Below, piece by piece: positions 1,836 through 58,687 of a stretch of DNA of 64,000 nucleotides (positions are counted from its first letter, which is position 1; the number at the start of each line of letters is the position of its first letter). The DNA comes from Thuidium tamariscinum. Taxonomy: Eukaryota > Streptophyta > Bryopsida > Hypnales > Thuidiaceae. Below the pieces are notes generated by a model. The model made no database searches. It saw only the letters and a program-made list of their open reading frames with translations, and was not told the origin of the DNA. The DNA lies in assembly GCA_947034885.2 (NCBI GenBank), contig OX344749.2, positions 6,649,501 to 6,713,500 of the forward strand. The letters run 5' to 3'. The position numbers and the translations under genes are program-made.

Positions 1836-2569
1836 GGGGATTGCAAGAAATACTTGTACTATTGGTTGTGTTTTTTGCAATAGTATTCATGATTTTTTTT
1901 GGAGTATTTTGAAGTAAGAAGAATTTTTTTTAAATTTAAAAATATGGCTAGTGTATGCACCTTTAAGATGAAGGTTTAAATTCCTTAAAAAATCTCTAAC
2001 TACTCTAAGCAGGAGAACTAGAAAAGTGCTAAATCTTCAAAAAATAAATACTTCAATGTTTTAATTAATTGAAAAATTGAAAAAAAATTCACATAAATAA
2101 AATAAATAATTTTCATTTGCAAAAACTTTATAGAGATGGTCATTTACCAAAAGACCCACCAAAATAATATTTTACATGTTTCAAAATGCAAGTACAATGT
2201 GGCTCACTCTATAGACTTCTATATGACATTTAATTATCTATTTTTGAAAATCCTTTGAATACTAGCTAAAAGTCTCCTACAATACTATCTTCTCCAAATT
2301 TTAGTTCCAAATTCGTTTATTTGGGTACTACTTTGTTCAAAAAACCTCAAAAATGACAAGTGTGACATAATATCGGGGGTCCATTATTAAATAGTAGTAC
2401 ATTTTTGAAATTAAAAAAGAAAATTAGACAACATGTGCAATAGTCATGTTAAATACCTTGTCTATATATGTTGAGCCATTTGAAGCCAAAATGTAAAAGT
2501 TATGGCCAAAAAACTTATCAACACGCAAAGTGTGACTGGAAATAGTACAAGTGTTTCTTGCAATGACCC
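1836..2569. mobile_element. 4-bp-TSD MITE family, subfamily B copy
   Basis: Left end GGGGATTGCAAGAAATACTT and right end (reverse complement) GGGTCATTGCAAGAAACACT match the ends of the family described at 48701-49414 and elsewhere. The right half (words such as GCAAAGTGTGA and GCCAAAATG) is shared with the nested copy at 20695-21421. The length of 734 bp fits the family. Unlike seven other copies, no matching 4-bp flanks are seen here, so one end may be eroded. Confidence 0.65.
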
Positions 2570-20205: not shown

Positions 20206-21656
20206 GGGTTGTTGCAAAAAACTCTTAGTGTTTTTGTCTCAAAATGGTCCAAGTGTTGTAGTATTATGATTTTTGAAATAATTTTTTCTTAAATGAAATA
20301 AAATATAGATAATTTATAAAGCACTCTAAATTGTACGTGAATACAAATTCTGATGTAGAAATATTTATCTCTAAAAGTTATGCTCATTCAAAGAATGATG
20401 AAAAATACAAGAAAATAGATACTTTGGAATTTCGTTTTTAGAAAATTGTATAAAAATTCAAAAAATAATCTAAAATTTTTCTTCCTAATTTGAAGGTTCT
20501 TTTTTTTGCCCATTTCCATCTTCAAAAAATTGTATTCTCTACACATGTACAAAGGTATTATACTTTAACCACATGTGGAAGGTGAATCCTTTATTGTTTT
20601 TAGAAAATTTCTTGACAAGCTTCTGTAACAAACTATAGAAAGAGTGTACATTCTAATTTTTACCTTCAAATTTGCATTTTTGGATTAAAAATAGGATGAA
20701 TGTACAATATACATTTACTATTTGTCGTGTTTAGTAACAAGACCTATGAATTTTTCTAGAATACTTTAAAATTAGGAAACTAATTTTTTTTAGATTGTTA
20801 AATATGAACAATGTATGCACCTTTAAAATTTAGTTAGTCAACCACTCAAGGAAATTCAAAAGAATTCTCTAAGTAGGAGAATTGGAAAAGTGCAAAAATC
20901 AAGACCAAATTAATATTTTAATATTTTAATAAATAAAAAATAGAAAAAAGATATAATAAGCACACAAAATTGATTATTTGTAGAAACTGTATGGAAATGA
21001 ACTTTTACCACCAAAATCACCAAAATCAATTTCACATATTTTGAAATGTAAGTAGAAAAAGGTTCACTATATAGACATCTGGTACATGTAAAATTAACTC
21101 TATTTATAGATCCTTTATAGGTTATCTACAAGTTTATTTAAAGACCACCTTCTCCAAATTTGAGCTTTAAATTCATTTATTTGGGTACTCAATAATACTA
21201 AAAAAATCCTAAATTGGCAATTGTGATATAAAATTGGGGGTCATTTTTAAATGAAGAAACATTTTTTTAAATTTCAAAAATTTATATAAAGTGTATAATA
21301 TTCATGAAATACCTTCTTACAAATTTCAAGTCATTTAGAGCCAAAATGCAAAAGTTATGGCCAAGAAATAGATCAATATGCAAAGTGTGATGCAAAATTG
21401 TACAAGTGTTTCTTGTAATCAATAGTACTAAAATCCCTCAAAATTGCCAGAGTAGACATCCAATTGGGGGCTATTAAAAATAGTAAAATAATTTTTTTAA
21501 ATTGAAAAAATTACTCACTATCTACAACTACTACATGTACCTTCATTTCAAATTTTATTGAAAATGGACATACTATGCAAAAGTTCATAGCAAAAAATCA
21601 CATGTATAAGGTATAGTTAGGGGATTAAAAAAAGACAAGGTTTCTTGCAACAACCT
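20206..21656. mobile_element. 4-bp-TSD MITE family, subfamily A copy interrupted by a nested copy
   Basis: Left end GGGTTGTTGCAAAAAACTCT, then TTTTTGTCTCAAAATGG as in the copies at 48701 and 57021 (reverse). Right end (complement) AGGTTGTTGCAAGAAACCTT. A 727-bp relative is inserted at 20695-21421. Removing it restores a contiguous element of about 720 bp whose order matches 48701-49414. No exact flanking duplication is seen for the outer copy. Confidence 0.75.
20695..21421. mobile_element. nested 4-bp-TSD MITE, subfamily B, TSD ATAG
   Basis: Begins GATGAATGTACAATATACAT, a decayed version of the 52976 copy's left end, and ends AGTGTTTCTTGTAATCA. It is flanked by ATAG at 20691-20694 and 21422-21425. 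The host sequence on either side is continuous with the related copy at 48701, so the insertion site is confirmed by an empty-site comparison inside this window. Its interior matches 1836-2569. Confidence 0.8.
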
Positions 21657-23564: not shown

Positions 23565-24280
23565 GGGTGAGTTCAAGAAAGACTAGTCCTATTTCATATC
23601 ACAATCAAAGTAACAATGTTGTTTTTGGCAATAACTTTTGATGCATGAATCCTATAATTTTGAAATTTTTACTGGAGATACCTAACTTGATGTTAATCAG
23701 ATCCCTTATTTTTTGAAATTTAAAAAAATTAATTTTATAATTAATTTTTAATTTATCTAATTTGTCACAATTAGGAGTTTTAGGGTTTTTACTACGTTAG
23801 GAGTACCCAAATTTAATGATTTAGAGCTCAAAATTTCATGGTCTATTTGCATAGTAGGGAATCATGTATCTACCAAAGGAAATTTGAAAATATATTATTT
23901 TATGTCCTCCACATGAGTATAAACAACACTTCCATTGCACACAATTTTTTTAACATTGAATATGGTTTTTAGATTATTTTTTTGGTGAAATCTAATCATC
24001 ATCAACTATTCCCTAATGGCTAATTTCTTTTCCTATTTTTTACAAATAAAAATGTAAAAGTGCCTATTTTCATGAGATTTTGCACTTTTCTAATTCACCT
24101 ACTTAGAAAATTTTCCTACACTTTTCCTTCATAGGATATCTTCTTCTTCAAGAAATATACATTAAGCATATTTTTCATATTTTTTAAAAATTGTTTTTCT
24201 ATTTTTAAAGTACTCCCGAAAAATCAGGAGTATTATGGCCAAAGTGTACAAAAACCTTTTGGTCTTTCTTGAACTTACCC
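23565..24280. mobile_element. 4-bp-TSD MITE, TSD ATAA
   Basis: Ends GGGTGAGTTCAAGAAAGAC and (complement) GGGTAAGTTCAAGAAAGACC, 716 bp, flanked by ATAA at 23561-23564 and 24281-24284. The interior words (ATTTGTCACA, TTAGGGTTTT, CTACTTAGAAAATTTT) are shared with the copy at 52976-53720. Confidence 0.9.
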
Positions 24281-48700: not shown

Positions 48701-49414
48701 GGGTCATTGCAAGAAACACTTACCGTTTTTGGCTCAAAATGGCCTATTTCAATGAGTTCTATGACTTTTGGAATAAATTTTATTTAAATAAAATAAAATA
48801 TGGATAATTTGAAGAACAATGAGAATATTGTGTCCCAAAATTCAAAGCTAAGAAAATTTAACTTTAAAGTTATGCACAAAAAATGCACAATGAAAAATAC
48901 AATAAAAAATAGTCACTTTGATGTTTGACTTTTTTTAAATAGTAAAAAAAATTTAATTAAAATAATCCATTTTTTGTGACCTCAAGATGCTAGTTCTCTT
49001 CAACCATTTTCATCTTTGAGAAAAATAAATTGTGTTCTTTACATGTGCGCAAAGGTAGTTTACTTTGAGTATATGTGGAAGTTGGATAGCTTATAGTATT
49101 TTTAGAAAATTTCTTTGTGGTCTTGGGAAACTCTAGTGAAAGTCTTGGCATGCCAATTTTGAGCTTAAAATTTGCATTTTTGAGTAAAAAACAGGACTAA
49201 ACCCTCCTAAATGGTCAAGGTAGACATCCAATTAGGGGTGTTTAAAATAGTAAAATAATTACATTCAAAGAATTACATTATGTCCAAACTTTTACATGTT
49301 CATTATTTTCAAATTTTGTTTCAAATGAACAAACAACGCAAAAGTTATGGGTAAAAAATACTTGGCTTAGGCCAAGAGGAAAAAAAATAGGATAAGTGTT
49401 TCTTGCAATCACCC
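48701..49414. mobile_element. 4-bp-TSD MITE, subfamily A, TSD TCAT
   Basis: Ends GGGTCATTGCAAGAAACACT and (complement) GGGTGATTGCAAGAAACACT. 714 bp. Flanked by TCAT at 48697-48700 and 49415-49418. No ORF of note. This is the best-preserved pair of ends in the window. Confidence 0.92.
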
Positions 49415-49624
49415 TCATCTACAAAATTGTTCATTCTAAGCTAGTATATCCAACCCCATCCCCCTCACAATTCTCTAAATCATTTTATTTTGCTTAATTT
49501 TTTCCTTGATGGTTCATGATGTCATACATTTTAACCTTTAAAATTTTCATCGACTTTCAAGGTGTTTTGGATCTTGATTAGAGAAAGCCAAGTCCTTATT
49601 ATCTCTTTATAATATATATGTGAA

Positions 49625-49782
49625 GGTTGCTACAAGGAAACACAATAATCCATGTTTGGGCATAACTAAAATGGTGCTTTGATTGGCTCTTTTGGACACA
49701 TAGGTCAGACGCGCTGTAGTCAGGATTACGTAGTTCTACAAGTACTATGTCCAAAAACGTGAAGTGTTTCTTACAGTCACCC
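49625..49782. mobile_element. 158-bp miniature of the 4-bp-TSD family, TSD TGAA
   Basis: Left GGTTGCTACAAGGAAACAC and right (complement) GGGTGACTGTAAGAAACACT. Flanked by TGAA at 49621-49624 and 49783-49786. Interior GTTTTTGGACATAG resembles the start of the larger subfamily A copies, so it looks like an internally deleted form. Confidence 0.8.
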
Positions 49783-49786
49783 TGAA

Positions 49787-50415
49787 ATCTATACTTGACC
49801 TACATGTCTAAAATTTATATTTGACTTACATATCTAAAATATACACTATTTTTAAATGTTTTAAAGTCCATACTTGCGTGAGGTGTCATTTTTTGGATTA
49901 AGACCACGCAATTTGAAATAGCCTAATTAATGAAATATGCTATTTTAAACAAATTCACCATCTAACTATTCTATAAATACATTGTGACTAAAACAATATA
50001 CTAATGATATAAAACAATTACAAAAACAATTATGTAAAACTTGGTGCTAGTAAAGAAGACAATAGTTTAGGACATTTGTATACAACATGTGGTTGTATTT
50101 TAGTTAGTTGTAGTTAGACATTTTCTTCTTCTTGAGAATCACATATACCACAATTGTATACAAGAAGATCCAAATGTGTAATCAAAAGCTGCATCATGGA
50201 ACTAAGTGGCTAGCATGTTAGAAATTCATTGCTTGGTAAACTTTTCAATTTACTTTAGCATAGTAGGTTGTACTAACCCCACATGCCTTACTATTTCTCT
50301 TATGGTGTCATAGTCCTTTGAGGCTTGTGCCATACTACCAGTCAATGATTTTTGATCTCATTTAACATTTTTTTAATAGAATGGGTGACAAACCATTGCT
50401 ATCTTTACTTGAGAT
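49787..50415. other. AT-rich gene-free stretch
   Basis: No ORF, element end or structured repeat recognised. Confidence 0.5.
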
Positions 50416-50419
50416 TTTA

Positions 50420-52775
50420 AAGATTTCATCAAATTAACTCCTAAAGGTTTTTGACTATGTTTTCACCAAAAATGCTTCAAAACTGTCATTTTTTAGACAA
50501 CTATCAAATTTTAAGAATTTTTTTTTTAAAAACAAAAGTAACCATACGATCTTTTAGAACACAGATTTAAGAAGATGTGGAAAAAATTTGAGCAATTTCC
50601 GCCATGTAAATTGCAAGATATTAGTGTTTGAAGTGACAAAAATCATTTTTTTACCAATGCGAAAATTCAGGCAGCTATACTTTAGAAGACCATATATTGT
50701 GTGGAAAAATGTCCAAAATGATTGTAACTCTTTGGATTCATTTTTCAATTGAAGTTGGATCCATGCTTGAAAATTTTCAAATCATTTGAAATTGTACAAC
50801 ATATAGGAAAAAAATAGTAAGTAAAAAGAAGACAATCTCAGTAGTTGTAATGTTGTGTTAAATAATATACACTCACTGTTTTTATTTTTTTCAAAAATAT
50901 TAAAAATTGATTTAAACTTTTAAACTTTTTCAAACTTTTTTTGTAGTGTAGAGATTCTATAACTAGCCAAAACTACCTCAAACTAAAAATCCTCATAACT
51001 TTTGACTCATTAATCAAAATGGAATGATTCAAAGCTTTCCACTTAGATAAAAATCAAAGAAACCAACTTCAAATTTTAATTTCTTAAAAAAGTAATCTTC
51101 AAAGAAGTTTTTTTTTCTGCCTAGGTTGCCCACCAAGTAGAGAAAACAACATATAATGTCATAACTTTTTAACCATGTAGTCAAAACTTATGAAAATTGT
51201 TGGAACTTAAAGCTACTTCTTGGGCACATGCTGTGTAAAAATTTTTTTTTTAAAAACAAAAAACTCCATATGTAATGAGCTACCCGAAATTGCTATGTTG
51301 CCAAAAAACATAATTTAGTCCTTTAGGGATTAATGTCTACATTTCAAGCTGTAAATTAGACAAATTTTTGAAGGATTAGGGTTTGTTTTCTTTTCTATGG
51401 TATTCAAGATAATCAAAAAAAGATATAGTCAAGTGTTAGAACAATCTTCGGTTGTGATGAGAATCAATTGGTTAGTCTTTTCTCCATTTCATTATTTGCT
51501 TTTGGTGCATATAGGCCATAGGTGTATACTAGTGATTTTTTCCACTTAAATGGATTGGGTATACTTTCAATAGTGAAGTGTTGAAAGTGCTTTAGGCACT
51601 TAACACTTGATATTGAAATTCATGATTTAATAAAAGGTTTCAATGAATTTTATCCATGATAGACTCATCAATTTTCACATTTCACAATTTTCAATGATTC
51701 ACTTCATAGACTCTACAATTTTCATAGAGTTTGACATCCATCTTCTAAGACTACAAGTTTCTTCCTTTCCTTAGAATTCTCAACTCTTAAAGTCTCTCCA
51801 TAATTTTGCAAGATTCATATCTTTTGCATTGTTGTCAAATTAGGCAAGTCAAGCATTTTAGATGATTGAACATCCCGGACCAATTGACATGTTCGACAAG
51901 CAGTTGGAGAGATTAAATAGATGATGTGATTTTCTTAAAGAAGTTACATCAAATGGATTAGGGCTATTGGACTTCTTAGACAGGCAAAGCAAACAAAATG
52001 GTTTGGACAAACAATCCATCTATTGTAACAACCATGATCTTTTGTATGTAGTATTCTTCATCAATGACATTTCTACTTGCTTCTATAATGTCCACAATTA
52101 TCAACACCTTAGCCCCTAAAGGACCAAGTTGCATTTTCTGGCAACATAGTCATTTTAGAGAGCTAATTATGAATGGAGTTTTTTTGTTTTTTCTTTCAAT
52201 TTTTCACACAACACATGCCGAAGGGGTAGCTTTACGGCCTAAAAATTTTCATAACTGGCTTATGACTACATAGTCAAGAAGTTATGGCATGATATATGAC
52301 TTAATTTCTTTAATCTTGTAGCGGCTTGCATTGTTCAAAAACTTTTTTGAAAAATAAAAAATTGAAATTTGTTTATTAAATTTATATCTTTTTTGAAAGC
52401 TTTGATCATTTCATTTTGATTAATGAGATGAAAGTTATGAAGAGTTTTAGTTTGAGGTAGTTTGCGGTTAGTTACAGAATCTCTATTCTACAAAAAAAAG
52501 TTTGAAATCTTCTATTTAATTCAATTTTTAATATTTTTGAGAAAAAAATTAAAACATTCGGTGAAGATTGTTTATTAAAGTATTACAACCATTGGAATTG
52601 GCATTTTTCATAAATAAATTGTTTACAATTTTGTATTTTGAAACATTTTCTACTTCTTTCTACTTATTATTTTTTTTCCAAGTATGTTGTACAATTCTAA
52701 ATGATTAGAAGCATTTTGGAGCATTTTTGATGGAAACATAGTCAAAAACCTTTAGATGTTCGATGGAATTTGGTT
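50420..52775. repeat. 2.3-kb long inverted repeat (foldback)
   Basis: Left arm about 50420-51345 and right arm about 52085-52775 are diverged inverted copies in the same order. Shared blocks include CTAAAGGTTTTTGACTATGT, AATTGTACAACATA, ACTACCTCAAACTAAAA, CATTAATCAAAATG, ACAAAAAACTCCAT and CTATGTTGCCA. The left arm has an extra about 290 bp (near 50486-50780). The spacer of about 740 bp is non-coding. Part of the same sequence occurs as a single arm near 960-1220. The arms look old, with many differences. No transposase. Confidence 0.75.
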
Positions 52776-52975
52776 CATTTGTTTAAAATTAAAAAAAAAC
52801 AATTGTTTAGAGGTTAAAATCAAAACTTTATACTTAATGTAAACAAAAATTGTTGAATTTTCTCAAAACTTTGGACATAATTTTCTATTTAAAACTAAAT
52901 TGGTATAGAAGTGAGTTGCACTTAATTCGGCCGGTATCCTATGTTGTTCCAAAACATATATAAAAATGTATAAAC

Positions 52976-53720
52976 GGGTGAATGCAAGAAAGACTTGTAC
53001 TATTTGGCGTCACACTTTGAGTGATGGAGTTGTCATGAGCTATAACTTTTGAAAAATTAACTCTTTGAACTTGAAATTTTTATTGAAGATGGCTGACTTG
53101 ATAGTTATCAAAACCCTTGTTTTTCAGAAATTTTCAAAAATAATTTTATATTTAAATTCTAATTTCTCTAATTTGTCACACTTTGCGGTTTAGGGGTTTT
53201 TAGTACTGGGGAGTACTTTAAATTAAAAATTTAGAGCTGAGATTTCTAGGGTCTATTCCTACACTAAGTAGGCATTTTTCCATTGAAGGAAATTTAAAAA
53301 ATCATTATTCTCTTTCCTCTACATATGTGCTAATAAGCCTCCCTTGCGCGCACATTTTTGAACAATCCAGATAGTTTTCAGATCATTATTTTGGTGAAAT
53401 ACCTTTACCATAAAGTCTTCCCAAATGGATAATTTTTAATTTTAAGAAAAATTACTTTCCCTATTTTTTACAAATTAAAATGTGAAACTATAGTGAAAGT
53501 TATAATTTTCACGAAATTCAGCACTTTTCTAGTTCTCCTACTTAGAAAATTTTTCTATGATTTTCCTTCTTAGGCTATCTTCTTCTTAAAAATATATACA
53601 TCAAACATATTTTTCACTTTTTCTTAAAATTGATTTACTATTTATATAATACTCCCAAAGAAAAAAATGAGTACTGTGCAAAACGCTACGCTTTTCATCA
53701 GATCTTTCTTGCAATGACCC
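52976..53720. mobile_element. 4-bp-TSD MITE, subfamily B, TSD AAAC
   Basis: Ends GGGTGAATGCAAGAAAGACT and (complement) GGGTCATTGCAAGAAAGATC. 745 bp. Flanked by AAAC at 52972-52975 and 53721-53724. Confidence 0.92.
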
Positions 53721-53724
53721 AAAC

Positions 53725-56700
53725 CGAAGGTTTCAAGAGCATAAACTGAGTTTCCAATTTCTGTTATTTCGCTTGTTTTCCCAAACCAAGTAATATTCGG
53801 TTGCTAAATGTCCGGAACAGTCATTCAGCAAGTGAACCCAAAACCTAAATTTAGTTCACTGCATGCTCCGATTTTGATCGAATCAGCCAACTTTGGTTTG
53901 GGGTCAACCCTGGAGTTGTTTTTTCAGTGTACTTTCAACGCTGGTGTTCTTTTGGGTTTATTTACAACTTTCCACTTGCTACCCAATCCACATAGCACGC
54001 CATGGCATATTCGATCGGTTTGGATGCGGACTTGTTCAAAAAAATTCTTACACAGGTTCCGGTCACACGGCGTGACAAGCCGGCATCTTTTGCGGAAGGG
54101 GTGTGGACCTTTCAATGAAGCCTGTCGGTAAATTGAGGACTGGAACATCTTAATATCAACCGCGTGCGTGCATGCAGCGGTGCCTTAAGCGACTCGGCCC
54201 ACGAGTAGCTAGAGTATTTAGTCCGCACGACCCGATCACAACTAGTTCAATCACAAGTTGTGTATGATGCAGAGACAGTTCATGACGTCTATTTCGTGCA
54301 CGTGAAATTGGAGAATGATATTCCACTACATTGATCAGTGCGATTCAGGACGTGCTTCTTGAACCGCATTGTGTCCTAGTTTGTGGCCTGAATTTAAGTT
54401 CCTGTAAAGAAGTATGTCACAAGTTCAGGCTCATGGAATGAATGCCTCCAGTTTAACGAAATTGACGTTTTATTTAGCTGTTTATTTTTTTGGTAAGAAG
54501 TGGGGCAAGCCCATCGCTAAAGATCTAGTAAAATTCCGCATCGCACCCAGAGAACAAGGCCTAACCGACAGGCAGGAGATGAAGGCAGGCGACGAAGACA
54601 ATGAAACCAAACACCCAACTATCTTTCATCACCGGCTGCAATTAATGCATAGATAGTTTTCAAATTATGCCCGAATTCAAGCACGCAAGTCATTCCCAAG
54701 TATATGTACGGAAATCTTGAGTGGATGACATTCTGAGGAAACGGCCTCACTGGTAATTAACATCAATCAGAAGGTGCGATTCCTTGCCTGAAGTCTCGAT
54801 CCGAAGAATTTTTGTTTCATTCAATTCGGTCCTCGGTATTCATGCATGCATGTCGATCTGTAATGCAGAGGCTAGCTAGCTACTGATTAATCTTCGTACT
54901 TCGATTCCCGGGCCCTATATATCTTGGAGAAGTTCGAGGGCCAGCACTCTATACATCATCAGCTTCGATCGGTATGTCTAAGCGATTGGACTGGTGGTGG
55001 GAGTCAGAGCAGCTAATTTTGATACCAGACCAATGAATTATCGTTAATTTCGTTGAATTAAAGCGATTCCGTGCCAGAAATTGTGTTCCGAACACCAGGC
55101 CGCGGGACGGTCTGAACGCCCGTTCTCAAAGTACCAAAGTGCGGGCCAAAGTGCCAAAGTGGTGGAACCTCGCCAACGTAATGAAATTGACGTTGATTAT
55201 GGCTATAATCTGTCGGTTGAAGTTAACAGACAATTTAATTCACCTTGAGCTTTCTCAACAATATGGTTGAACTGGAGGACTGTTCTTTCGATTTTGTGCA
55301 TTTTGAGCATCCTGCAGGTTCCGTCGAAAGTTTTTACGAGCTAGTATTATGGTCACATTAGGTAAAATGAAGTGTTTCAGAGCGACTCAACTGTGGCCTT
55401 AACTTCAGGTGCACATGCAGAGCTCTAGAAACTAGGACTGGAAGAGATAAGCATGAGACAACCGAAAAAAGGGCCCATTTTCTTGAAAATCACAAATTTC
55501 AACGACCTGACATGCAGTTAATAGGAAAGAAAGAATAATTGAGACCCTTTCGACACTTTTGGCATTGAAGTATTTAACTGAGGTTTACAAACTCTGGACT
55601 TTGAGGTTGGCCATTCTATGGAATATGCCGCTCAAGTTTCTGTGATCGAGGCTGGGAGTCGTTACTAAATAAGCCTGTTAGGAAGTCAGAGCTCCGTCCG
55701 TATTGCGGCTGGATCTCGTGCTGGAGTAATTCAGCTTGTTCTGTCTGAGCAGCCAGAGACTGAGTCAAGGTCTGAATTTAAGGGTCTGGCACCACGTCAA
55801 ATAAATTACAGTTTGCTTTCTAAGCCAAAAAAAATACGGAGTCACTGTGCATCACATGAACCAGTTTGTTGCCGTACGTCGAAATTCTGTAAATATTCGC
55901 CACAATTTCCTTATGAAAGCACAAAATAGTCAAAAAATTTGACAACTGCACGACGTAGGCCTACATAAAGTAACAGGACCTCCAGGTTTTCAAAGAAACG
56001 TGTGCAACAATAATAGAAACATTTTGAGTTGTCAATTTTTCTTAACGTTTGGTTCTTGAATTAATGACGATGCTGCAAAGTTGTGTAAATTTCAACCAAG
56101 GCACAAAAACAGGCATATTCTACCCGACAATGGTCAGTATGTGGAGGTAGCCAGGGATTAATTGAGGGATAAATATTGGGAATGAATGAAATGATCGAAT
56201 GAACTGAATGTGGTGGGGTAAGGTGTGGGATAACAGGCAAAGGGAGACATGGGAGTTGCAACTCTTCAAGGCTACGGAGATGCGGCTGGAATTTCTGTTC
56301 ATGCATTAGAGAAAATCTGGACTCTCCAGAGGGCCACTAAGAAGTGGCAAAAGGGACCCTCATTACATTTATTTAGTATGAGGCAAAAATTTTCCCCTAT
56401 AGTTGTGATGGACAAGTGTCATGTGCTCAACAGTGCAGCCAAACGTCAGAGCTTCAAAATACGAGCTCTTCACCTTCATTGAATGAAAGCTGTAAAAACT
56501 GACATATTTTGTGTGGCAGTGAAGATATTCACAAAAGCTGAACCGCATTTCCTATCAGAAATCGGGCACTTTATACAGAAATCAAGCTTACACAGAATTC
56601 CTTATATAGACTGGCTTGTCAAAATTAGACGGCCCTCTGGAGAGTCGATATTTTCTCTAATGCTTTTGCTCTTGACCGACCAGGATTTCGCTGGCAACAA

Positions 56701-57015
56701 ATCCCGTAGGATTGATCTTCCAGGTACATTTATCATGTTAAAACTTCAAAATTGCTTTCTTAGAGTACATTCACACCAAGGGTACGTGATGAAAAAGTGA
56801 GATAAAAATTTTCACTAAAGTAGGATTAAGTGTACAAAATAAAGTTGATGTGAAGATAATGATGTTTTCCATGTGATTGTAAATATATTTGTGCACAAAA
56901 ATATAGAAAGTATCAATCTTCAAAGGAAAAATAAGGAATCTAAAGACCTCGACCTTTGTTGATATGTCTAAACACCCTCACTATTTCCTTTCTTATTTAA
57001 TTGTTTTGAAAATTA
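53725..57015. other. GC-normal spacer without a recognised gene
   Basis: Composition resembles genic DNA and ORFs of 77-107 codons occur at 53808-54131, 54414-54656, 56249-56482 and 56483-56800 (plus) and 56061-56306 (minus). None has a recognised domain, and no phase-consistent exon chain was found. A TATATATC at 54916-54923, followed about 55 bp later by a GTATGT donor-like site, looks like a promoter and first exon. A non-coding transcript or a decayed gene is possible. Confidence 0.35.
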
Positions 57016-57020
57016 TAATT

Positions 57021-57700
57021 TAGTGATTGCAAGAATGACTTGTCTTATTTGTTGTCCCCTTGGCCTTGGACAAGTGATTTTTTGCTCATAACTTTTGCAA
57101 AATAGTTCATGATATAGTCTAATTTTTTGAATTTTTAAAAATTATTTTAATATTTTTAAGCTGACCCCAATTGGATGTCTACCTTGGCCATTTTGAGGGG
57201 TTTTAGTATTATTTTCAACCCTAAATTGAAAATTTGAAGGTGAAAATTGAAATACAAAGACTTCTATTATAGTTACACAATCTTGTGAAGAGGTTTTTTA
57301 AAAATAGTAAAGTATTCATCTTTCACATGTGCTCAAAGTGCACCAAGGTACACTTGTAGAGAATACAAAATATTCTTTTGAAGGTGAAAATTGGCAAGAA
57401 GAAGCACCTTCAAATTTAAGACAAATAGATTTTTTTGTTTTTTTTGGAATATTTTTACTATTTTCTAAAAACAAAAATTTCAAACTACCTATTTTTTGTA
57501 TTTTTCATCACTCTCTGCGATAGTGTAACTTTTAGAGATAGATTTTTCTAAGTTAGAATTTTCACCTACATACTATTTAAAGTACTCTATAGATTATCCA
57601 TATTTTATTTTATAAAAAGAAATTTATTCTAAAAATCACAGTGCTGCAATACTCAAGGCCATTTTGAAACAAAATCGTTAAGTCATTCTTGCAATCACCC
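57021..57700. mobile_element. 4-bp-TSD MITE, subfamily A (reverse), TSD AATT
   Basis: Ends TAGTGATTGCAAGAATGACT and (complement) GGGTGATTGCAAGAATGACT. 680 bp. Flanked by AATT at 57017-57020 and 57701-57704. The ORF at 57329-57523 is internal and not conserved in other copies. Confidence 0.9.
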
Positions 57701-57742
57701 AATTGCAAGAGTTTGCAAGCTCAACCTTCATGTAAGCATATA

Positions 57743-58471
57743 GGATGATTGCAAGAAACACTTGTCTTTTTTTTTGTCCCCTTGACCTTCAGGAGGTAAT
57801 TTTTTGCTTATAACTTTTTCATCTTTTGTTCATTTGACTTGAAACTTATAATGAAGGTGCTTACAAAAGTTTTACATTTTTTGTAATTTTTTCAATTTTT
57901 TCAAAATTATTTTACTATTTTTAAACTGCCCCCGATTGGGTGTCTACTTTGGCCATTTTGGGGTTTTTTAGTCCTATTTTTGACCCCAAAATGCAAATTT
58001 TGAGCTGAAAATTGGCATGCAAGGACCTCACCTAAAGTTACACAAGACCACGAAGAGATTTTTTGAAAATACTATCCTGTTCAACCTCCACATATTGTCA
58101 AAGTCGCTGACTTTGTGCAAGTGTCGAGAATAAAATTTATTTTTTTCAAAGATGAAATTTGTTGGAAAAGAAAGAACTTTACTTGGAGAAAAAATTATTT
58201 TTGAATTTTCATTTTTTGAATTTTTTTACTATTTTTACCAAATTAGTGAAAAAAGAGCTATTTTCATTGTATTTTCCATTGTCTATAACATTTAGAGAAA
58301 AATATTCTTAGGTCTGAATTTCAAGAGACATAATATTCTCATTTCTCTTCAAATTATCCATATTTTTTTCAATTTAAAATTTTTTTATTTCAAAGGGTCA
58401 TAGGACTCATAGGACTCATTGATTTTGAGCCATTTTGAGCCAAAAACGGTAAGTGTTTCTTGCAACAACCC
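57743..58471. mobile_element. 4-bp-TSD MITE, subfamily A (reverse), TSD TATA
   Basis: Ends GGATGATTGCAAGAAACACT and (complement) GGGTTGTTGCAAGAAACACT. 729 bp. Flanked by TATA at 57739-57742 and 58472-58475. It lies 42 bp from the preceding copy in the same orientation. Confidence 0.9.
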
Positions 58472-58503: not shown

Positions 58504-58687
58504 ATGGTCAATTTCGTTAAAATGAAAGTATTCCAATAAAATGGCATGATATTCCGTTCAAATGGCACAACATTCTTGTTAAAATGGCACATTTTCTTCC
58601 TCTACTTCTAGGCCTCTATATCAAAATGGTACTCAAAATATGTCAAAATGGCACTTGGAATACCACCATTTTAACGAAATTGACTAT
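58504..58687. mobile_element. short MITE, TSD AGGC
   Basis: Ends ATGGTCAATTTCGTTAAAAT and (complement) ATAGTCAATTTCGTTAAAAT. 184 bp. AGGC flanks at 58500-58503 and 58688-58691. Same family as 46819-46986. Confidence 0.8.

Follow-up and report, generated by a model that had tools for sequence, protein, structure and literature searches.

The window, by which we mean the whole 64-kb stretch of DNA analysed here (C1:6649501-6713500, within a searched genome of 363.2 Mb on 19 contigs), carries eight roughly full-length copies of an element with terminal inverted repeats (TIRs) and ends like GGGTGATTGCAAGAAACACTT, and matches to this family cover 5,742 of its bases, or 9.0%. There is no open reading frame of 150 amino acids or more inside any of the window copies, and in the loci L070 and L071 the longest stop-to-stop frame runs to 97 amino acids. 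The coordinates of the copies, which are assigned to sequence types A, B and C as described below, are collected in Table 1.

The window also holds open reading frames of its own, and three of the five that were scanned match the glycosyltransferase 61, class III peroxidase and cytochrome P450 families; where the solved-structure matches of the peroxidase carry an organism name, that organism is a plant. The DNA thus comes from a plant, which may be a moss, as the genome size, some 11 large contigs and numerous Sola-like genes would suggest. An Rfam scan of the window gave no match.

Table 1. Copies of the main element family in the window, and copies of a second MITE family in the window and at two other loci
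Feature	Position	Strand	Observations
A-type copy	1836..2569	-	79% identity to A consensus; flanks GCAC/TAAA
C-type copy, left piece, interrupted by 20695-21421	20206..20694	+	host ends with 4 and 6 of 21 mismatches
A-type copy nested in C-type copy	20695..21421	-	ATAG duplication; empty-site alignment; 71% identity to the 1836 copy
C-type copy, right piece	21422..21656	+	starts with the second ATAG; pairs with 20206-20694
B-type copy	23565..24280	+	duplication ATAA
C-type copy	48701..49414	+	duplication TCAT; best-kept ends, 1 and 0 of 21 mismatches
158-bp element	49625..49782	.	duplication TGAA; mismatches: 8 of 21 at the left end, 2 of 21 at the right
B-type copy	52976..53720	+	duplication AAAC
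C-type copy, diverged, internal deletion	57021..57700	-	duplication AATT
C-type copy	57743..58471	-	duplication TATA
Second-family copy	window 58504-58687		duplication AGGC
Second-family copy	L015 1530-2908		duplication TATT
Second-family copy	L038 2326-2610		duplication TTTT

Copies in the window and a nested insertion

The seven exact four-base flanking repeats on which the original prediction was built are all present at the stated positions (Table 1). The copy at 48701-49414 has 30-bp inverted ends that are 87% alike; when the genome was searched with it, the best 40 of 3450 first-look candidates were scored and showed 79-100% identity, the copy itself included. The copy at 1836-2569 is damaged at its 5′ end (the true start is 1835/1836) and has no target duplication, as had been said of it.

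The same lack of clear flanks had been ascribed to a second copy, of 1451 bp, at 20206-21656, and here the evidence leads elsewhere. This stretch is a C-type copy of about 716 bp that is split by the A-type copy at 20695-21421, and its own flanks, TGTT and TCTT, differ by one mismatch. When the inner element and one ATAG are deleted, the host aligns without a gap at the junction to three sister copies (48701, 57021 and 57743), which have a single ATAG-like stretch at that point. The nested copy and its empty site show an insertion with a 4-bp duplication, and the nested insertion therefore accounts for the apparent 1451-bp copy. Although the ends of the inner element are eroded, with 14 of 21 mismatches each in register, its membership of the family is supported by the duplication, the interior and the empty site.

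The assignment of the 158-bp element at 49625-49782, described originally as a miniature of the family, is more doubtful. Its duplication and its right end fit; its left end is poor and its interior has no match to the A, B or C consensus, and membership is uncertain for these reasons.

Target duplications, abundance and sequence types

The duplications were assessed over a sample of 45 inward-facing pairs of ends, each 21-base end having at most 5 mismatches and the two ends lying at most 1.5 kb apart, drawn from the window and from fetched loci. The loci are not a random selection: eight were the best matches to the 48701 copy (one of these, L001, is that copy itself and was excluded) and the remainder came from various searches, with 30 of the sampled loci being the first exact 25-base ends along C1. 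Misfits were kept among the pairs, for example the mispaired 20206-21424, and the copies at 20695 and 23565 and the 158-bp element lie beyond the five-mismatch cut and hence are absent.

Within this sample an exact 4-bp flanking duplication is found in 27 of 45 pairs, and 36 of 45 agree with at most one mismatch. When left and right flanks were re-paired at random as a control, 1000 shuffles gave a mean of 1.2 exact matches and a maximum of 5; the probability that two random 4-mers from the window agree by chance is 0.0056. Six window copies are among the 45 pairs, four of them exact, and at the remaining loci the count is 23 of 39, so that flanks beyond the window, which the original prediction had singled out as the place to check, bear four-base duplications too. 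The 27 exact duplications are AT-rich and varied, without a fixed sequence. Together with the empty site, these counts bear out the description of a MITE family with sequence-variable four-base duplications.

The length of the duplication can be taken as four, because exact matches over 3 bp (4 of 45) and 5 bp (2 of 45) are few in comparison with the 27 over 4 bp. The Tc1/mariner, hAT and Mutator superfamilies make duplications of other lengths, that of Tc1/mariner being the fixed TA as opposed to the varied four bases seen here, and all three are removed on this ground together with Harbinger. The earlier exclusion of superfamilies with TA, 3-, 8- and 9-bp duplications is accordingly supported.

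It is nonetheless useful to consider the Harbinger case separately, that is, the reading that these are PIF/Harbinger relatives whose duplications have been misread. GGG-type ends are common in Harbinger, and PF13359 genes are abundant in this genome (331 candidates, of which the best 150 were scored). However, this reading is already contradicted by the duplication length, given that most groups of Harbinger and its relatives (PHIS) have 3-bp duplications, with either 3 or 5 bp in one group, in the available part of PMC4482050, and we regard it as highly improbable. No family end, at up to 7 of 25 mismatches, was found in the 1.5-kb flanks of eight PF13359 loci. Likewise, none of 23 listed PF13359 places on C1 lies within 8 kb of a listed family end, as compared with a mean of 1.6 under random placement, which is a weak negative.

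The family is very abundant. Genome-wide, the 21-base end has 21,015 matches with at most 3 mismatches (10,486 + 10,529), against 5 (2 + 3) for the reversed control, and the 25-base end has 3,901 matches with at most one mismatch, against 0 in the control. The window contains nine 21-base ends where the genome average would give 3.7, and is thus about 2.4 times richer than the genome. If each copy contributes approximately one counted end, as it does in the window, a rough extrapolation from this one window puts the family at some 20,000 copies in order of magnitude, amounting to roughly 4% of the genome; plant MITEs of all kinds together make up 0.7-2.2% as clade averages, according to the accessible portion of PMC12550479.

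At least three consensus types can be distinguished, A (732 bp, 15 copies), B (734 bp, 5 copies) and C (726 bp, 9 copies), to which a palindromic form must be added, and the earlier division into two subfamilies falls short of this diversity. Aligned along their length, the A and B consensus sequences show 70.6% identity; the likeness of C to A is limited to about 270 bp at one end and to short patches. The A consensus has a perfect 30-bp TIR. Divergence of copies from their own consensus is 13-25% for A, 13-18% for B and 7-23% for C, the low C values being largely those of copies chosen for their likeness to the 48701 copy. The two halves of the A, B and C consensus sequences are 66.5-67.3% alike, close to the 61-63% of shuffled sequences, so these types are hardly palindromic past their ends.

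The palindromic form, by comparison, is about 1.08-1.09 kb long: the first 526 bp of A make up one arm, and an inverted version of this arm follows beyond a centre of about 40 bp. Its arms are 95.5%, 90.4%, 79.8% and 78.1% identical in four copies, against 62-67% after shuffling (one shuffle each). Lengths across the 45 pairs reflect the two forms: 33 are of 680-759 bp, 7 of 1060-1099 bp and 5 of other lengths. Palindromic copies have two distinguishable ends, GGGTGAATGCAAGAAACACTTGTACTATTTGT and GGGTGAATGCAAGAAACACTTAAAGC, the first with 369 exact occurrences genome-wide, also outside the palindromic form, and the second with 291 within one mismatch. Exact duplications flank two of these copies, AGAT in L062 and AAAA in L064. 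Judged by the likeness of their arms, the palindromic copies look like the youngest part of the family, and the 90-95% likeness of the arms of L062 and L064 suggests recent activity of some transposase.

Candidate sources of the transposase

The ends, the four-base duplications, the empty site, the copy number, the nesting and the lack of long open reading frames are all direct observations, and the family almost certainly consists of non-autonomous TIR elements (MITEs) with variable 4-bp duplications. MITEs of about 720 bp, and their palindromic form, would encode nothing themselves and would depend for their movement on a cut-and-paste transposase supplied in trans. This enzyme would recognise GGGTGATTGCAAGAAACACTTGTAC-like ends and would cut the target DNA with a four-base stagger, which would leave the varied, AT-rich duplications. 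We infer, tentatively and with somewhat less than even confidence, that the transposase is Sola-like and most likely belongs to the DUF7869 group, whose genes abound in this genome. Taken as a whole, the explanation of a MITE family moved in trans by a Sola-like enzyme strikes us as evenly poised between right and wrong.

The original prediction called for a long element with the same ends that encodes a transposase; the search, which covered a small part of the genome, turned up no transposase-bearing element flanked on both sides by these ends. The end positions used for pairing were among the matches listed, with the 21-mer listing mostly on one strand. On C1, the 163 left and 105 right ends among those listed gave nine inward pairs 1.3-15 kb apart, and the three whose interior was read contain no transposase; on C2, pairs were chosen by eye. 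Several candidate long elements have simpler compositions. C1:52716372-52724970 is three separate MITEs, C1:47190263-47192526 is two adjoining MITEs, the first with a short insertion, and in C1:27919244-27920639 (1396 bp) an element of about 300 bp is nested within a palindromic MITE. The true partner of the end at C1 441321 is 711 bp away, and the pair at C1 37379060 has the size of a nested copy, by length only. The 10.9-kb pair C2:5171579-5182494 owes its size to an insertion of about 9.8 kb close to the left end of a palindromic MITE. Further candidate pairs are C1:12546125-12549307 (3.2 kb), C1:17278795-17282588 (3.8 kb), C1:2283007-2287120 (4.1 kb), C1:2280699-2287120 (6.4 kb) and C2:9769303-9771380 (2.1 kb); chance alone would yield a few pairs of this kind. 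Loci L016, L021, L026, L031, L032, L036 and L037, considered as a larger version of the family, are a different repeat, with the end CAGGGTTTTC, that carries a truncated MITE; we take this repeat to be hAT-like.

The transposases searched for genome-wide were of two kinds, Harbinger-type (PF13359) and DUF7869 (PF25273), the proteins of the latter being, we presume, Sola-like transposases. A profile search for DUF7869 gave 852 first-look candidates, and the best 150 were scored, all 150 lying above the cut-off; many have open frames of 950-1076 amino acids, and the motif GHTHxD[VIM]D occurs at 374 genome sites against 0 in the control. The proteins that were read fall into five lineages, about 24-65% identical. 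None of 13 distinct loci from these five lineages is enclosed by family ends in the flanks examined, which were short for lineages III-V (L065 begins 54 bases before its first open reading frame). One of the 13 (L049/L054) has an unpaired family end with 3 of 25 mismatches at a repeat boundary (L054 433), beside a 1067-amino-acid gene. Neither of the sister copies L055 and L056 has this end, and the far side of the repeat yielded no partner for it, so that it may be a chance fragment; weaker end matches near DUF7869 loci (7-9 of 25 mismatches) were left uncounted. Complete MITEs lie near two DUF7869 loci, at L062 5508-6599, about 165 bp past the gene repeat, and at L061 7279-8013. These do not constitute a link, because both have their own two ends, as expected for so abundant a family. 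None of 26 DUF7869 motif sites on C1 is within 8 kb of a listed family end, where random placement gives 1.8, again a weak negative. In the window itself, a tblastn search with five DUF7869 proteins gave no relative.

The readable DUF7869 ends, AAGGCCTTATTCG... and AAACATTAAATTCG..., are unlike GGGTGATTGC, and this bears on a reading in which the mechanism is the same and the enzyme comes from an undescribed superfamily, or from a source now extinct in this genome that has left non-autonomous copies only. That the family ends match no DUF7869 end read, and that an autonomous partner is absent from all loci fetched, would follow naturally from such a source. Against this, the search took in a small part of the genome, and the young palindromic copies suggest recent transposase activity, so that we consider an undescribed or extinct source possible and rather doubtful. 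The more specific proposition, that at least ten thousand MITE copies with four-base duplications and GGGTGATTGCAAG ends, including near-perfect palindromes of about 1.09 kb, derive from a transposon of an uncatalogued superfamily, appears unlikely.

Returning to the Sola-like enzyme, a further observation comes from a second MITE family, with ends ATGGCGAATTTCGTTAAAATGG, for which all three end-to-end copies seen have 4-bp duplications (Table 1). Its end and the 3′ end of class II DUF7869 elements, AAGGCCTTATTCGTTAAAATG, share TTCGTTAAAATG (positions 10-21, in register, by eye), and their first 11 bases differ at five places; Repbase, in the part of PMC4455052 available, allows one mismatch when assigning non-autonomous elements to one superfamily. 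Because of this shared end, DUF7869 elements may make four-base duplications. The second family thus keeps a Sola-like source for the main family plausible, without proving it.

The length of the duplication alone cannot single out Sola, because CMC elements make duplications of 2-4 bp and Ginger elements of 4-5 bp, according to the accessible text of PMC4482050. These values favour, to some degree, a source outside Sola among the known superfamilies whose duplications are of 4 bp or variable (Academ, Chapaev/CMC or another). On the other side, Ginger ends are TGTNR, with CCGG/CCGT targets in Ginger1 and RTATAY targets in Ginger2 (PMC2836005, as far as the available part extends), unlike the GGGT ends and varied AT-rich targets seen here. 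CACTA-type ends, which begin CACT, likewise differ from GGGT. Such a superfamily is an improbable source in our judgement. The original prediction had named Sola or Ginger, or else an unnamed group; Ginger is removed by its ends in spite of its similar 4-bp duplications, and Sola is a possible source by its duplication length and its occurrence in a moss. Specifically, the available part of PMC10741241 describes Sola as making 4-bp duplications, as present in the moss Physcomitrella and as seemingly uncommon in flowering plants. The present family differs from described Sola elements in that there is no transposase gene in or between any end pair read.

Relation to known elements

The end sequence has no match in the literature searched, and by titles and abstract openings the family is not described in the literature on Sola, MITEs, moss or 4-bp duplications. 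It is a real and very abundant MITE family, of a known kind and unusual for a plant, that was not found in that literature. With plant MITEs of the Tc1/mariner, PIF/Harbinger, hAT, Mutator and CACTA types it shares short length, non-coding sequence, TIRs, high copy number and target duplications; it differs from them in its variable 4-bp duplication, its length of mostly 680-745 bp and its palindromes of about 1.08-1.09 kb.

The palindromic form resembles, in our view, foldback-type elements, with which it has in common two inverted arms, each about 526 bp long, on either side of a centre of about 40 bp, with an arm identity of 78-95% in four copies. Unlike them, it has the ends and the arm of the ordinary 730-bp MITEs, together with the same 4-bp duplication.

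These comparisons have some practical consequence. Tools for plant MITEs that sort elements, as is common, into five superfamilies according to ends and duplications could misfile or miss a dominant family with four-base duplications, and the ends, the duplication, the empty sites and the young palindromes offer a clean handle for identifying the transposase. If that enzyme should prove Sola-like, the family would represent a very large Sola-driven burst of MITEs in a plant. As to length, a survey of 207 genomes places plant MITEs in five superfamilies and one special group, with clade averages of 156-251 bp and a bracket of 50-800 bp, in the part of PMC12550479 available; the ordinary copies described here lie inside that bracket, and the palindromic form exceeds it.

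Transport and nesting of the palindromic MITE

Some copies of the palindromic form of the main MITE family are carried by, or combined with, other DNA. Specifically, a young repeat present at seven loci (L016, L021, L026, L031, L032, L036 and L037), with ~94–99% identity across 2.5–2.8 kb, carries a truncated palindromic MITE inside it. This repeat is presumably hAT-like, as its terminal sequence, CAGGGTTTTC, appears to indicate, and it accounts for 7 of the first 30 loci along C1 with an exact main-family end. The truncated MITE has thus multiplied through the spread of its carrier.

Three pairs of inward-facing main-family ends, two on C1 and one on C2, are 1396–1400 bp long (table). In L071, the one pair of the three whose sequence was read, the palindromic MITE contains a nested ~300-bp element with ends AGGTAGGTGGCT and, apparently, a TA duplication. 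Because the three lengths are equal, this suggests that MITE and nested element, contents known for L071 alone, travelled together as a unit. At C2:5171579-5182494 (L068 and L069), ~9.8 kb of other DNA, with a single stop-to-stop frame of at least 100 aa, interrupts a palindromic MITE close to its left end.

Positions of second-family copies and main-family end pairs (L-loci in internal coordinates)
Feature	Position	Duplication	Basis
Second-family copy	window 58504-58687	AGGC	
Second-family copy	L015 1530-2908	TATT	
Second-family copy	L038 2326-2610	TTTT	
End pair	L071 105-1500 (C1:27919244-27920639)		sequence read
End pair	C1:37379060-37380459		length only
End pair	C2:32817073-32818468		length only

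A second MITE family and the DUF7869 elements

A separate MITE family has ends ATGGCGAATTTCGTTAAAATGG and 4-bp target duplications; compared by eye, the 3′-end of class II elements carrying DUF7869, a candidate Sola-like transposase domain, is similar to its ends. An unpaired main-family end (3 of 25 bases mismatched) at L054 433-457 directly adjoins a class I repeat with a DUF7869 gene, at the repeat's conserved terminus; the sister copies L055 and L056 are without a clear version of this end.

Genomic distribution of DUF7869

Contig C11 (17.5 Mb, ~5% of the genome) is enriched in DUF7869, with 47 of the 150 matches listed, counted by eye; at a guess, it could be a sex chromosome. Among the first 100 places listed, GHTHDDID-type sites seem, by eye, crowded close to several contig ends.
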